Origin: Actinomycetota bacterium | Lineage (GTDB): Bacteria; Actinomycetota; Actinomycetes; Actinomycetales; Kineosporiaceae | Assembly: GCA_030837505.1 (NCBI GenBank) | Contig: JAUPKJ010000126.1 | Coordinates: 1-36,783, forward strand | Direction: 5' to 3' | DNA length: 36,783 nucleotides | Shown here: piece after piece, positions 4,334-16,489 of the stretch | Layout: every line of letters starts with the position of its first letter | How positions within the stretch are numbered: position 1 is the stretch's first letter | Position numbers and translations under genes: made by a program | Notes under the pieces: generated by a model | The model's database searches: none | What the model was told of the DNA's origin: nothing | What the model saw: the letters and a program-made list of their open reading frames with translations, nothing else

Positions 4334-4570
4334 CCGCTCGCGTCGCAGCAGCTTCCCGAGGGAGGACCTCGGCGAGACAGATCGCGTCGCCGCGTGTCCG
4401 GTCCTCCCCCGGACCGCCCGCTCGCGGGGGATCTGAGAAAATGCCGAGTTGAACGCAGAAGGCCGCACGGCCCCCTGCGTGCCCGGCCCGATCGTCGGAC
4501 CGGGACGGCCCACCGGCGGGCCGACCGAACGGTCGGTCCGTTCCACCATCACCATCGTAAGGACCCGGAC

Positions 4571-5008
4571 ATGCCCCCCAAGAAGAAGAAAAAGGTCGCA
4601 GCGGTCATCAAGCTGCAGATCAATGCCGGTCAGGCGACTCCTGCCCCGCCGATCGGCCCGGCGCTGGGTCAGCACAGCGTCAACATCATGGAGTTCTGCA
4701 AGGCCTACAACGCCCAGACCGAGGCCCAGCGCGGCTTCGTCATTCCCGTGGAGATCACGGTCTACGAGGACCGTTCCTTCACCTTCATCACCAAGACCCC
4801 CCCGGCCGCCGAGCTGATCAAGAAAGCGGCCGGTGTGCCCAAGGGCTCCGGCGAGCCCCACACGAACAAGGTCGGCACCGTCACGGCCGCACAGGTCCGG
4901 GAGATCGCCTCGACCAAGTTCGAGGACCTGAACGCCAACGACCTGGACCAGGCTTCCAAGATCATCGCAGGGACCGCCCGCTCGATGGGGATCGTCGTCC
5001 AGGGCTGA
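4571..5008 (+). CDS. rplK: 50S ribosomal protein L11
   Basis: 145 aa. The start is ATG at 4571 with AAGGA upstream, not the longer in-frame extension from 4394. After a lysine run comes the N-terminal domain with the proline-rich [13 protein letters not shown] segment, the site where thiazole antibiotics and EF-G contact L11; the prolines are wild type. The C-terminal 23S-binding domain ends [11 protein letters not shown]11 forms the GTPase-associated centre with 23S helices 43/44 and L10. The 237-bp leader contains CCGACC(GAAC)GGTCGG at 4521-4536, just before the ribosome binding site. Confidence 0.98.
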
Positions 5009-5139
5009 CCTGAGGGACCTGAGAGACCAGTCACCACCGAGGTGGTGATGACGCCCGAACGCGCCGAACAGCGCGACGGGTACGGGTGGCAGGGCGAGAG
5101 CCCGTGGACCACGACTGTGAACCACGACAGGAGAGCATC

Positions 5140-5856
5140 ATGAAGCGCAGCAAGGCGTACCGGGCCGCGGCCCAGAAGATCGACCCGAGTCGGTTCTACG
5201 CCCCGCTGGAGGCCGTGCGTCTGGCCCAGCAGACCTCCGCGACCAAGTTCGACGCGACCGTCGAGATCGCCTTCCGCCTCGGGGTCGATCCCCGCAAGGC
5301 CGACCAGATGGTGCGTGGCACCGTCAACCTGCCTCACGGCACCGGCAAGACCGCCCGGGTCCTGGTCTTCGCCAACGGCGACCGTGCGCAGCAGGCGCAG
5401 GAGGCCGGAGCCGACTACGTGGGCTCCGACGACCTCATCGCCCGCATCCAGGGAGGGTGGCTCGACTTCGACTCCGTTGTCGCCACCCCCGACCTCATGG
5501 GCAAAGTGGGCCGCCTGGGCAAGATCCTCGGTCCCAGGGGTCTGATGCCCAACCCGAAGACCGGCACCGTGACCATGGACGTCGCCAAGGCCGTTCAGGA
5601 GATCAAGGGCGGGAAGATCGAGTTCAGGGTCGACAAGCACTCGAACCTGCACTTCATCATCGGCAAGTCCTCCTTCTCCGACACCGCGCTCGTGCAGAAC
5701 TACGCTGCGGCCCTCGACGAGATCCTGCGGCTCAAGCCCGCTGCCACCAAGGGCCGCTACCTGCGCAAGGCCACCCTCACCACGAGCATGGGCCCCGCCA
5801 TCCCGCTCGATGTGAACCGCACCCGCGACCTCGAGACCGAGGACGCCGAAGTCTGA
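5140..5856 (+). CDS. rplA: 50S ribosomal protein L1
   Basis: 238 aa with ATG at 5140 preceded by AGGAG at 7 nt; an in-frame upstream ATG at 5086 is not needed. L1 forms the mobile L1 stalk that guides deacylated tRNA from the E site. The hallmark [20 protein letters not shown] segment lies near residues 120-140. In many bacteria L1 represses its own operon by binding the mRNA. The 131-nt leader holds a TCACCAC(CGAG)GTGGTGA hairpin at 5031-5048, but I cannot show that it is an L1 site. The stop codon lies inside a 19-nt tandem duplication. Confidence 0.98.
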
Positions 5857-5904: not shown

Positions 5905-5950
5905 CGCTCGGGCCGATCCTGCTGTTCGGATCGGCCCGAGCGTCGTTTTC
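5905..5950 (+). terminator. Rho-independent terminator after rplA
   Basis: A perfect 15-bp stem: CGCTCGGGCCGATCC (5905-5919) with its complement at 5928-5942, and an 8-nt loop. It is followed by TCGTTTTC. It closes the secE-nusG-rplK-rplA unit and is the most canonical intrinsic terminator in the window. Confidence 0.88.
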
Positions 5951-6087: not shown

Positions 6088-6930
6088 ATGACTGTCGTCC
6101 GTCCCAGTGCCCGACACCGCGTGGCCCTCTGCGCCGTTTGTCTGGCTCTTCTCCCTCTCGCCGGCTGTAGTTCCGGCTCTTCCCCCTCGGAGGAGAAGAC
6201 CCCCACGGGCCCTGTCCGCCAGGACCTCAGCAAGGCCGGCAGCAAGAACAAGGTCGACGCCAAGGAATTCGCCCGCACCATCGACACCGCGGTCAAGGGC
6301 AAGCGGACCGCCAAGATCACTTTGACCGGGAGCGGCGGGGTCAAGGGAACCGGTTCTGTCCTGTACGAGGCCGACAGCATCAGCCTGAGTCTGGATCTGA
6401 CCTCCGACAAACAGGAGCTGAAGATCCGTCTGCTGCCCGAGGCCCTCTACGTGACCCTGCCGACCCTGGAGAACGGCAAACCCTGGCTGAAGATCGAGAA
6501 AGGGGCGGACGCGCCTCTCGCCCAGCGCTACGCCTCGCTGTTCGCCTCCGTCCTGTCCAGCGCCGACCTCTCCACCGTCGGTGACAGGCTCGGGGACTTC
6601 CTGATCGTCACCTCGGGGACCGAGAAGATCGGCAAGGTCGAGGCCACGCGGTACGTCATGGAACTGGACCGCGACCAGATCCTGGCCTCGATCCCCGCGC
6701 GCCTGAGGGACGTCGCCAAGACCCCCCTGACCAAGCAGCTGAAGGACGCCGTCCAGCACATCGAACTCTATGTGGGCCCGGACGGGCTGCCCCAGCGCAA
6801 TGTCGCCGTGACCATGGTCAAGGACGGGACGGCTTCCACGGTGATCGATTGGAGTGCCTGGGGCCAGAAGGTCTCGATCGCCCCGCCGCCCGCCCAGCAG
6901 ATCACTCCGCTGAAGGACATCGCCTCCTGA
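6088..6930 (+). CDS. Lipoprotein of the LppX/LprAFG type
   Basis: 280 aa. Residues 1-26 are a lipoprotein signal peptide with a hydrophobic stretch and lipobox LAGC, so Cys27 would be lipidated and the protein anchored outside the membrane. A Ser/Gly/Lys-rich linker follows. The rest looks like the LprG/LppX single-domain fold, whose mycobacterial members carry lipids or lipoglycans in a hydrophobic cavity; the ligand here is unknown. The gene stands alone between two hairpins (5905-5950 and 6982-7013), so it is probably its own transcription unit. A lipoprotein gene at this point of the rplA-rplJ interval also occurs in Streptomyces. Confidence 0.88.
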   Translation: MTVVRPSARHRVALCAVCLALLPLAGCSSGSSPSEEKTPTGPVRQDLSKAGSKNKVDAKEFARTIDTAVKGKRTAKITLTGSGGVKGTGSVLYEADSISLSLDLTSDKQELKIRLLPEALYVTLPTLENGKPWLKIEKGADAPLAQRYASLFASVLSSADLSTVGDRLGDFLIVTSGTEKIGKVEATRYVMELDRDQILASIPARLRDVAKTPLTKQLKDAVQHIELYVGPDGLPQRNVAVTMVKDGTASTVIDWSAWGQKVSIAPPPAQQITPLKDIAS

Positions 6931-6981
6931 GCGAAGCCCCCTCCCACCGGTCGCTCGTGCTTCCGGCGTGCTTCCTGCGCG

Positions 6982-7013
6982 CTTCCGGCGTGCTCCGCGG
7001 AGCACGCCGGAAG
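6982..7013. terminator. 32-nt perfect palindrome after the lipoprotein gene
   Basis: The 16-nt half is CTTCCGGCGTGCTCCG, and the whole 32 nt equals its reverse complement. CTTCCGGCGTGCT also occurs as a direct repeat at 6960-6972. The RNA would form a very stable hairpin. There is no T-tract, so a terminator or mRNA-stabilising role is inferred from position; a protein-binding site is possible. Confidence 0.5.
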
Positions 7014-7043
7014 GGGCGCAACACACGGTCGACGGATCGCGAT

Positions 7044-7073
7044 TTGGTCATCGATCGCCGGCAAGGGTACGGT
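7044..7073 (+). promoter_or_regulatory. Promoter for rplJL
   Basis: TTGGTC (7044-7049) and TACGGT (7068-7073) are separated by 18 nt. The predicted start near 7080 coincides with the first bases of the L10-type leader, which supports the call. Confidence 0.5.
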
Positions 7074-7079
7074 CACCTT

Positions 7080-7200
7080 GCCGAAGACCGCCGGTCGCCA
7101 CCTTCGGGTGGTCGAAGGTCCCGCATTTCTGCGGGCGGCCCGCGCAGGTGACACAGGAGAGACGAGCCCATGGGCCCGTCCGGACTGCCTCGGGCAGACC
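7080..7200 (+). promoter_or_regulatory. L10-type autoregulatory mRNA leader
   Basis: The leader begins CCGAAGACCGCCGGTC and contains two clear hairpins: CCACC(TTCG)GGTGG at 7098-7111 and CCCGCA(TTTC)TGCGGG at 7120-7135. GCGCAGGTGACAC follows. This order resembles the conserved rplJ leader bound by the L10(L12)4 complex, recalled by pattern rather than aligned. A further small hairpin, CTGCC(TCG)GGCAG, is at 7185-7197. Confidence 0.65.
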
Positions 7201-7236
7201 ACGTCCCGTGCGCCTGCGCCGGGACGTTCGTGTTTT
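7201..7236 (+). terminator. Attenuator-like terminator in the rplJ leader
   Basis: ACGTCCCG (7201-7208) pairs with CGGGACGT (7220-7227), and the inner GCG/CGC extends the stem past a single bulged T. TCGTGTTTT follows. The structure sits 48 nt before rplJ, inside the leader rather than at the end of a gene, which suits conditional termination of rplJL. Confidence 0.6.
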
Positions 7237-7283
7237 GCGTGGCCCTTCGGATCCGCCGGCATCATCCCGGAGGAAGGAGGGCC

Positions 7284-7844
7284 ATGGCGAGACCAGACAA
7301 GGCAGCAAAGGTCGCGACGATCGCGGAGCGTTTCCGCGCCTCGAACGCTGCTGTGCTGACCGAGTATCGCGGACTCACCGTGGCGCAGCTGACGACGCTC
7401 CGCAAGAGCCTCGCAGCGAATGCCACGTACGTCGTGGCGAAGAACACCCTGACCTCGATCGCAGCCAAGGAAGCCGGTGTCACGGCCTTCGACGGCCAGT
7501 ACTCGGGTCCGACCGCGATCGCGTTCGTCACCGGGGATCCGGTGGAGGCCGCCAAGGGTCTGCGTGACTTCGCCCGTTCCAACCCGTCGCTGGTCATCAA
7601 GGGCGGTGTCCTCGACGGCAAGTCCCTGTCCGCCGACGAGGTCAAGCAGCTCGCGGATCTGGAGTCCCGCGAGGTTCTGCTGTCCAAGATGGCCGGCGCG
7701 ATGAAGGCGTCCCTCACCAAGGCCGCCTACCTCTTCGCAGCTCCTCTGTCGCAGGCCGTCCGCACCGTGGACGCGTTGCGCCAGAAGGTCGAAGAGAACG
7801 CCCCTGCCGCTGCCGAACCGGCGGCGGAACCCACCGAGGGCTGA
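7284..7844 (+). CDS. rplJ: 50S ribosomal protein L10
   Basis: 186 aa with ATG at 7284 and an excellent AGGAAGGAGG ribosome binding site. L10 is the base of the flexible L7/L12 stalk. The N-terminal rRNA-binding domain ([20 protein letters not shown]) is followed by a C-terminal helix ([14 protein letters not shown]) that docks L7/L12 dimers; the tail is Ala/Pro/Glu-rich. A hairpin with a 10-bp stem (7843-7873) starts at its stop codon and separates it from rplL, whose product is needed in several copies per L10. Confidence 0.98.
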
Positions 7845-7934
7845 CAGCCCGCCCATCAGCGCTGGCGGGTGTCGGCGATGCATTCGGATCGCGTCGGACA
7901 ACCCCGCGTGAACGACACGGAAGGAACCGCCACC

Positions 7935-8321
7935 ATGGCGAAGCTCAGCACCGACGAGCTGCTCGACGCGTTCAAGGACATGACGCTGATCGAGCTGTCG
8001 GAGTTCGTCAAGAAGTTCGAGGACACCTTCGACGTGACCGCAGCCGCCCCAGTGGCGGTCGGTATCGCGGCCCCTGCGGCCGGCGAGGCCGCGGCGGTCG
8101 AGGAGAAGGACGAGTTCGACGTCGTTCTCGAGGCCGCGGGTGACAAGAAGATCCAGGTCATCAAGGTGGTCCGCGAGCACGTCGCCGGACTGGGGCTGAA
8201 AGAGGCCAAGGACCTGGTCGACAGCGCTCCCAAGCCGATCGTGGAGAAGGCCAACAAGGAGACCGCCGAGAAGGTCAAGGCGGCTCTCGAGGGCGCAGGC
8301 GCCACCGTCTCCCTCAAGTGA
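7935..8321 (+). CDS. rplL: 50S ribosomal protein L7/L12
   Basis: 128 aa with ATG at 7935 and AAGGAA upstream. Residues 1-35 are the dimerisation and L10-binding domain. An Ala/Val/Pro-rich hinge follows (about 37-55). The C-terminal domain, with [25 protein letters not shown], recruits EF-Tu, EF-G and IF2. It is cotranscribed with rplJ at a gap of 90 nt, and two strong hairpins follow it, so most transcripts probably end here. Confidence 0.98.
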
Positions 8322-8385: not shown

Positions 8386-8431
8386 GGCGCGGTCCAGGAA
8401 CCCAGGTTCCCGGACCGCGCCTTCGTCGTTC
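8386..8431 (+). terminator. Second hairpin after rplL, probable terminator
   Basis: GGCGCGGTCC (8386-8395) pairs with GGACCGCGCC (8412-8421). One A-C mismatch later, the stem continues with GGAACC/GGTTCC. The tail is TTCGTCGTT. It separates rplJL from rpoBC, which has its own promoter. Confidence 0.7.
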
Positions 8432-8921: not shown

Positions 8922-9040
8922 AAGTCAAGGTCCTCTGAGTAACCTGACGCTTTGCGCTGCCCTGTGCCCCGCCCGTGGGTTTTTCCTCGGGACACTTGGC
9001 GTGCGCACGAAACGCTCGCAGGCCCGTGGAAGGACCCCTC

Positions 9041-12526
<3,486 letters not shown>

Positions 12527-12616: not shown

Positions 12617-16489
<3,873 letters not shown>

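Follow-up and report, generated by a model that had tools for sequence, protein, structure and literature searches.

How rplJL, the operon of ribosomal proteins L10 and L7/L12, is regulated by its leader has been described in several forms. In E. coli, L10(L12)4 represses translation of rplJL (PMC10931766), and a paper citing E. coli work describes autogenous control of rplJL transcription, exerted by the pentamer on the rplJ leader (PMC2904383). In B. subtilis, rplJL is preceded by an attenuator, an antiterminator/terminator leader with an L10(L12)4 site (Yakhnin 2015, PMC4538822). According to a 2024 review, over half of the Actinobacteria sequenced may have an L10(L12)4 site on the mRNA; beyond E. 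coli and Bacillus, it adds, the mechanisms could be different and deserve experimental work (PMC10931766). A preliminary description of the DNA analysed here, a 36,783-nt stretch from a member of the Kineosporiaceae (hereafter the window), raised the question of whether rplJL there may be controlled by termination and not only by translation. Its author knew of no demonstration of this in actinobacteria, and our search of the open-licence PubMed Central literature likewise turned up no description of rplJ attenuation in these bacteria, the occurrence of the site itself being already stated in the review (PMC10931766). Here, we propose, with a probability of roughly three in four, that the region before rplJ acts in cis as an RNA switch of rplJL, in the manner of the B. 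subtilis attenuator.

The window carries rplK (ORF 4394-5008), rplA (5086-5856), an ORF without a Pfam family (6088-6930), rplJ (7284-7844, + strand; PF00466, 8e-26), rplL (7935-8321, + strand; PF00542 and PF16320), rpoB (8975-12526) and rpoC (12617-16489). The start of rplL is set at 7935 by our own reading, the listed ORF opening at 7869. Among named relatives, the most similar L10 proteins are those of an actinomycete MAG and of Kineosporia sp. A_224, at 80% identity each. An Rfam scan of the window at gathering thresholds returned tRNA only. Three further hairpins lie nearby. A terminator-like hairpin of 15 bp is located 3' of rplA (5905-5942), with a tail, TCGTTTTCCC, similar to that of the attenuator. 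A GC-rich, almost perfect palindrome that lacks a T tail (6976-7020) separates the 6088-6930 ORF from the rplJ promoter, and its mir-4520 match in an Rfam search at E<=10 was rejected as chance level. Between rplL and rpoB, a strong hairpin, GGCGCGGUCC/GGACCGCGCC, is followed by TTCGTCGTT (8386-8421) and is likely either a terminator of rplJL or an element of an rpoB leader; for rpoB of M. tuberculosis, the 5' UTR is said to suggest attenuation (PMC3207917).

Anatomy of the rplJ leader

The window leader was compared with those of other loci. A first set of 110 leaders (the window and 109 loci), of which 102 could be parsed, has the AGACCG..GG core before rplJ in every case (110/110). The addition of 60 loci from the order and class gave 170 leaders, 164 of them distinct and 160 parsed; of the unparsed leaders, L142 (truncated by a contig end) and L169 lack the core, and L095 and L149 lack the 3' strand. 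Alignment A1 comprises 96 of the 160 leaders, after a near-duplicate filter by 5-mer similarity and the removal of seven rows in which the choice of antiterminator and terminator was inconsistent (L140, L150, L154, L156, L161, L030 and L111). Given that these rows were removed before counting, the covariation counts favour leaders with the pattern. Another 40 loci from other classes of the phylum served as an outgroup.

The promoter-like boxes that had been described at 7044-7073 are present. We place the rplJL promoter at 7041-7073 (+ strand), with the -35 region GATTTGGTC at 7041-7049, in which TTGGTC at 7044, within GATTTGG (7041), is the -35-like box, and with the -10 box TACGGT at 7068-7073; a generic sigma-70 scan of the window called no promoter. 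Across the class, the box counts are above those of shuffles: a TAnnnT box stands 4-16 nt 5' of the aptamer in 91 of the 96 aligned leaders (6.0 expected), and 71 of those 91 also carry an upstream TTTG or TTG box (4.6 expected). Hence, the transcript probably starts directly before the L10-leader-type domain and, judging from the -10 box, would do so near 7080 in the window.

The L10-leader-type domain (7081-7150, + strand), delimited by A1, RNAalifold and pair counts, is the proposed L10(L12)4 site and anti-antiterminator. It consists of a C-stem (7081-7082/7147-7148), a kink-turn-like strand (7083-7088), P1 (7089-7096/7137-7144), P2 (7097-7102/7107-7112), a CGAAGG loop (7113-7118) and P3 (7120-7124/7131-7135), all on the + strand. 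The ordered leader structure thus lies where the preliminary description had put it and belongs to an L10-leader-type RNA; the whole window leader folds better than 200/200 shuffles (z = -3.62). The usual kink-turn consensus has a second G-A pair. In a sequence-level comparison, the motif here, CC-N3-GA / CA-GG, is near-invariant in A1 and has an A-C opposition where that pair is expected. The loop presents two adenines, as GAA at 7114-7116 in the window and as UAA in the relative L006, the second A being at least 90% conserved in A1. The likeness of the aptamer to the L10 site of 23S rRNA is suggestive only: a two-block match covers 16/20 bases, with 4/2000 shuffles as good, and 22/96 leaders reach 16 compared with 8/1920 shuffles. 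A standard local alignment between aptamer and 23S rRNA was without significance, and a 23S match was found neither in the window's genome nor in genome G005.

The last bases of the domain form the switching strand S1 (GCGCAGGUG, 7142-7150, + strand). S1 pairs in part within P1 and the C-stem, or along its full length with S2 (CGCCUGCGC, 7211-7219, + strand), its complement in the terminator's top and loop. The spacer between S1 and S2 (7151-7200, + strand), inside the antiterminator helix, is variable in A1. Anti-antiterminator, antiterminator and terminator overlap in the window through S1 and S2. The terminator (7201-7227, + strand) has an 8-bp lower and a 3-bp upper stem, with arms ACGUCCCG (7201-7208) and CGGGACGU (7220-7227), GCG/CGC within, and a predicted energy of -18.5 kcal/mol. 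Its tail, TCGUGUUUU (7228-7236, + strand), corresponds to T-rich columns 3' of the stem in A1; the T-rich stretch, TCGTGTTTT, runs to 7236, 47 nt from the ATG at 7284. The previously described 8-bp stem with inner GCG/CGC pairs and a T-rich tail at 7201-7236 is therefore confirmed in the sequence. In a scan for eight perfect pairs followed by at least five T in ten bases, it is the single + strand site of the whole window (7201), next to one - strand site (16939) and none in each of five shuffles. The built-in terminator scan of the window missed the 7201-7227 hairpin, probably because its loop limit is at most 8 nt and the hairpin loop is read as 11 nt. An Rfam match to Scr3202 over the terminator, from the search at E<=10, was discarded as chance level (19 bits, the cut-off being 52).

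Conservation and covariation of the two pairings

The preliminary description held that a lack of conservation of the terminator stem in relatives would speak against it, and named compensatory changes and an alternative antiterminator pairing as the things to look for. The stem is kept: every pair varies in A1, 91.9% of cells still pair, and all eight pairs of the lower stem (8/8) have changed on both sides. A tail with at least four T of nine is found in 138/160 leaders, a count that is biased upward by the hairpin picker, which scores T in the tail positively; the other 22/160, including the relatives L002 and L003, have poor tails (2-3 T of 9). For the 26 pairs of domain and terminator together, 91.1% of the cells in A1 are paired, compared with 82.9% when shuffled, and 19 of the pairs have double-sided changes. 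None of 500 shuffles reaches these values, which are not probabilities given that shuffles ignore relatedness. Sliding the partners by one to three columns preserves relatedness, and pairing then drops to about 40-47%.

The alternative pairing between S1 and S2 exists and is conserved. At least seven contiguous pairs are possible in 140/160 parsed class leaders and all nine in 102/160. Against 50 dinucleotide shuffles each, the complementarity is at or below 0.02 in 111/160 leaders, and in 30/160 over 10% of the shuffles contain an equally good complement of S1. In the alignment, 95.6% of 824 cells pair, double changes occur at 4/9 pairs and 0/500 shuffles are as high, while sliding the partners by one column reduces pairing to 6-8%. 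With right-justified counting, 6/1000 row shuffles reach the paired fraction and 2/1000 the double changes. Covariation of the antiterminator is modest because S1 hardly varies; a C-G to U-A replacement is seen in leaders L134 and L135, which are one family. In 149/160 leaders, S2 falls at least partly within the loop or the 3' arm of the top-ranked terminator hairpin. At the same loci, the S2 motif is in the loop of 41/45 attenuator hairpins (loop plus 3-4 bases; 30/45 for the strict loop) compared with 2/45 hairpins 3' of rplL, a control set of 45 loci, with 3 missed, that was collected with a looser pattern. The motif is not general to the terminators of these genomes.

The two folds are of near-equal predicted stability. 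For the window leader, the antiterminator fold is the free minimum at -80.2 kcal/mol, and the anti-antiterminator plus terminator reaches -76.2 kcal/mol. For 71 of 96 leaders, the antiterminator fold has the lower energy; the median difference is -2.8 kcal/mol, and the two folds lie within 6 kcal/mol of each other in 71/96. Such a modelled near-balance would be a requirement of a ligand-driven switch and is not proof of one.

Distribution in the class and relation to Rfam L10_leader

A covariance model of domain and terminator (R1) matches 111/118 genomes of the class, and the matches with compared coordinates sit just 5' of rplJ. In the window's genome it gives one strong match of 117 bits, with the window among the training rows, and the next match has 14.8 bits. 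By our own count, the training rows came from 38 of the 118 genomes, and 73 of the 80 genomes outside training match, as do 13/13 class loci outside training. R1 also matches all four unparsed leaders and six of the seven removed rows, those six (all but L030) being the ones searched. Of the seven genomes missed, five are without an rplJ match (G063, G064, G098, G099 and G135) and one has rplJ cut at a contig edge (G084). The seventh, G081 (leader L140), has rplJ and an L10-leader-type domain without a clear terminator, and is a candidate for loss of attenuation. One contig, G168:C1, holds three equal-scoring leader copies with extra rplJ pieces (10688-10838, 7710153-7710303 and 7710605-7710754), either a duplication or an assembly artefact.

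The L10_leader family of Rfam (RF00557) had been suggested as a check on the leader assignment, and the search came out negative within the class and positive outside it. Matches to RF00557 are absent from the window at E<=10, from 19 relatives at E<=5 and from the 118 class genomes at E<=0.001, whereas all positive controls match (B. subtilis, Synechococcus, Thermotoga and Lactococcus). At the equivalent place in other classes of the phylum, 10/20 loci match at E<=0.1, four of them over the family cut-off of 44 bits. This occurrence at the same position makes the class form look like a diverged L10 leader. The class leaders share with RF00557 the position before rplJ, the AGAC..GG core, the AA loop, the 3' strand and the terminator with a U run (the RF00557 model contains its own terminator), but the window, its 19 relatives and the 118 class genomes fall outside what the model recognizes. 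A leader with an attenuator layout is found in nearly all actinomycete genomes examined, where Rfam does not see it. Outside the class, an S1-type antiterminator was detected at p<=0.02 in 1/39 loci with a crude strand finder that often takes the wrong strand, and the other classes may use a different antiterminator.

The proposed switch and its alternatives

The anatomy, its conservation and covariation, the near-equal fold stability and the class-wide, rplJ-specific distribution are established, and from these we infer L10(L12)4 as the ligand, the direction of the switch and termination in the cell. The transcript would start near 7080, and its first ~70 nt would fold into the L10-leader-type domain with its kink-turn-like junction and AA loop. 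Excess free L10(L12)4 would bind and stabilize the domain, S1 would be kept in P1 and the C-stem, the 7201-7227 hairpin would close and transcription would terminate around 7236. When L10(L12)4 is scarce, S1 would pair with S2 once the latter is made, the terminator would be blocked and rplJL would be transcribed. The earlier idea that termination may control rplJL is well supported by anatomy and comparison.

The proposed switch has the promoter, the L10(L12)4 site (here proposed) in the anti-antiterminator, the overlapping antiterminator and terminator and the leader of ~200 nt in common with B. subtilis. It differs in its diverged sequence and architecture, with S2 in the terminator loop region, in the CGAAGG of most leaders instead of a UAA loop and in having no conserved leader peptide. 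Intrinsic attenuation in an actinomycete is also described for M. tuberculosis ilvB1 (PMC13236596); that terminator/antiterminator leader is similar in kind but differs in gene and signal and in being ribosome mediated with a uORF.

An L10(L12)4 operator that acts on translation only, as in E. coli, with the hairpin as a structural or stability element, is an unlikely explanation. It would be served by the ordinary promoter and Shine-Dalgarno sequence and by a possible Shine-Dalgarno/start-codon hairpin of rplJ in the window (7238-7248/7276-7286, + strand), in which 11 contiguous pairs (0/100 shuffles) can join both elements to 7238-7248. However, such pairing reaches p<=0.05 in just 13/95 leaders and p<=0.01 in 4, and we rejected Shine-Dalgarno sequestration as a class-wide feature. 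By contrast, S1-S2 and the hairpin with its T tail extend across the class, and the hairpin ends ~50 nt from the ATG. An rplJ leader with a kink-turn target is thus shared with E. coli, but conserved sequestration was not found here. Given the strong Shine-Dalgarno hairpin, translational control could be added to termination in the window's genome.

Mutual exclusivity of anti-antiterminator, antiterminator and terminator is backed by complementarity, covariation and energies, although in the window S1-S2 and the terminator could coexist as a pseudoknot, S2 lying in the upper stem and 11-nt loop and leaving the 8-bp lower stem free. That the terminator still closes on such a pseudoknot, with the opposite switch direction or polymerase pausing only, has a slim chance of being correct. 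The folding program cannot score pseudoknots. In other lineages, such as those of leaders L004, L006 and L009, the hairpin picker assigns bases of S2 to the stem's 3' arm, which makes the pairings exclusive there. When the window transcript is cut at 7219, with the 3' arm yet to be made, S1-S2 is already paired in the predicted fold.

A leader peptide that couples ribosome movement to termination is scarcely probable here. The B. subtilis rplJL leader does encode a leader peptide (PMC4538822), and an ATG at 7170 in the window follows AGGAG and opens a frame (7170-7844) continuous with rplJ, extending it by 38 codons. This ATG is probably fortuitous because, across seven leaders compared, the length of the open stretch ranges between 3 and 133 codons. 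Frames preceded by a Shine-Dalgarno sequence in the spacer or terminator occur in 19/96 leaders compared with 15.7 in shuffles, with none in L002, L082 and L088, and the spacer is not conserved; a leader peptide was rejected as a class-wide feature. Least credible of all is a hairpin that marks an upstream transcript end or processing site unrelated to L10, to which some weak tails might point. The hairpin is flanked by the rplJ promoter and rplJ itself, the loop of the hairpin matches S1, and R1 recognizes domain and hairpin together in 111/118 genomes.

The proposed switch is a mechanism of a known kind; what is new is a class-wide form, invisible to Rfam, with an antiterminator that captures a loop. 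The mutually exclusive pairing and the spread through the class go beyond the preliminary description. We consider it fairly probable that nearly the whole class, to which Streptomyces, Mycobacterium and Corynebacterium belong, has rplJL, and perhaps part of the rpoBC supply, under one conserved L10(L12)4-responsive intrinsic attenuator, in which the antiterminator captures the terminator's own loop and which represents a divergent L10-leader family absent from Rfam. If true, transcription termination would be the ancestral mode of L10(L12)4 feedback in the class. The attenuator would supply the missing branch of the L10 leader in Rfam and exemplify intrinsic attenuation with short, GC-rich and often weakly U-tailed terminators, and it would offer a testable mechanism for the homeostasis of stalk proteins in antibiotic producers and mycobacteria.
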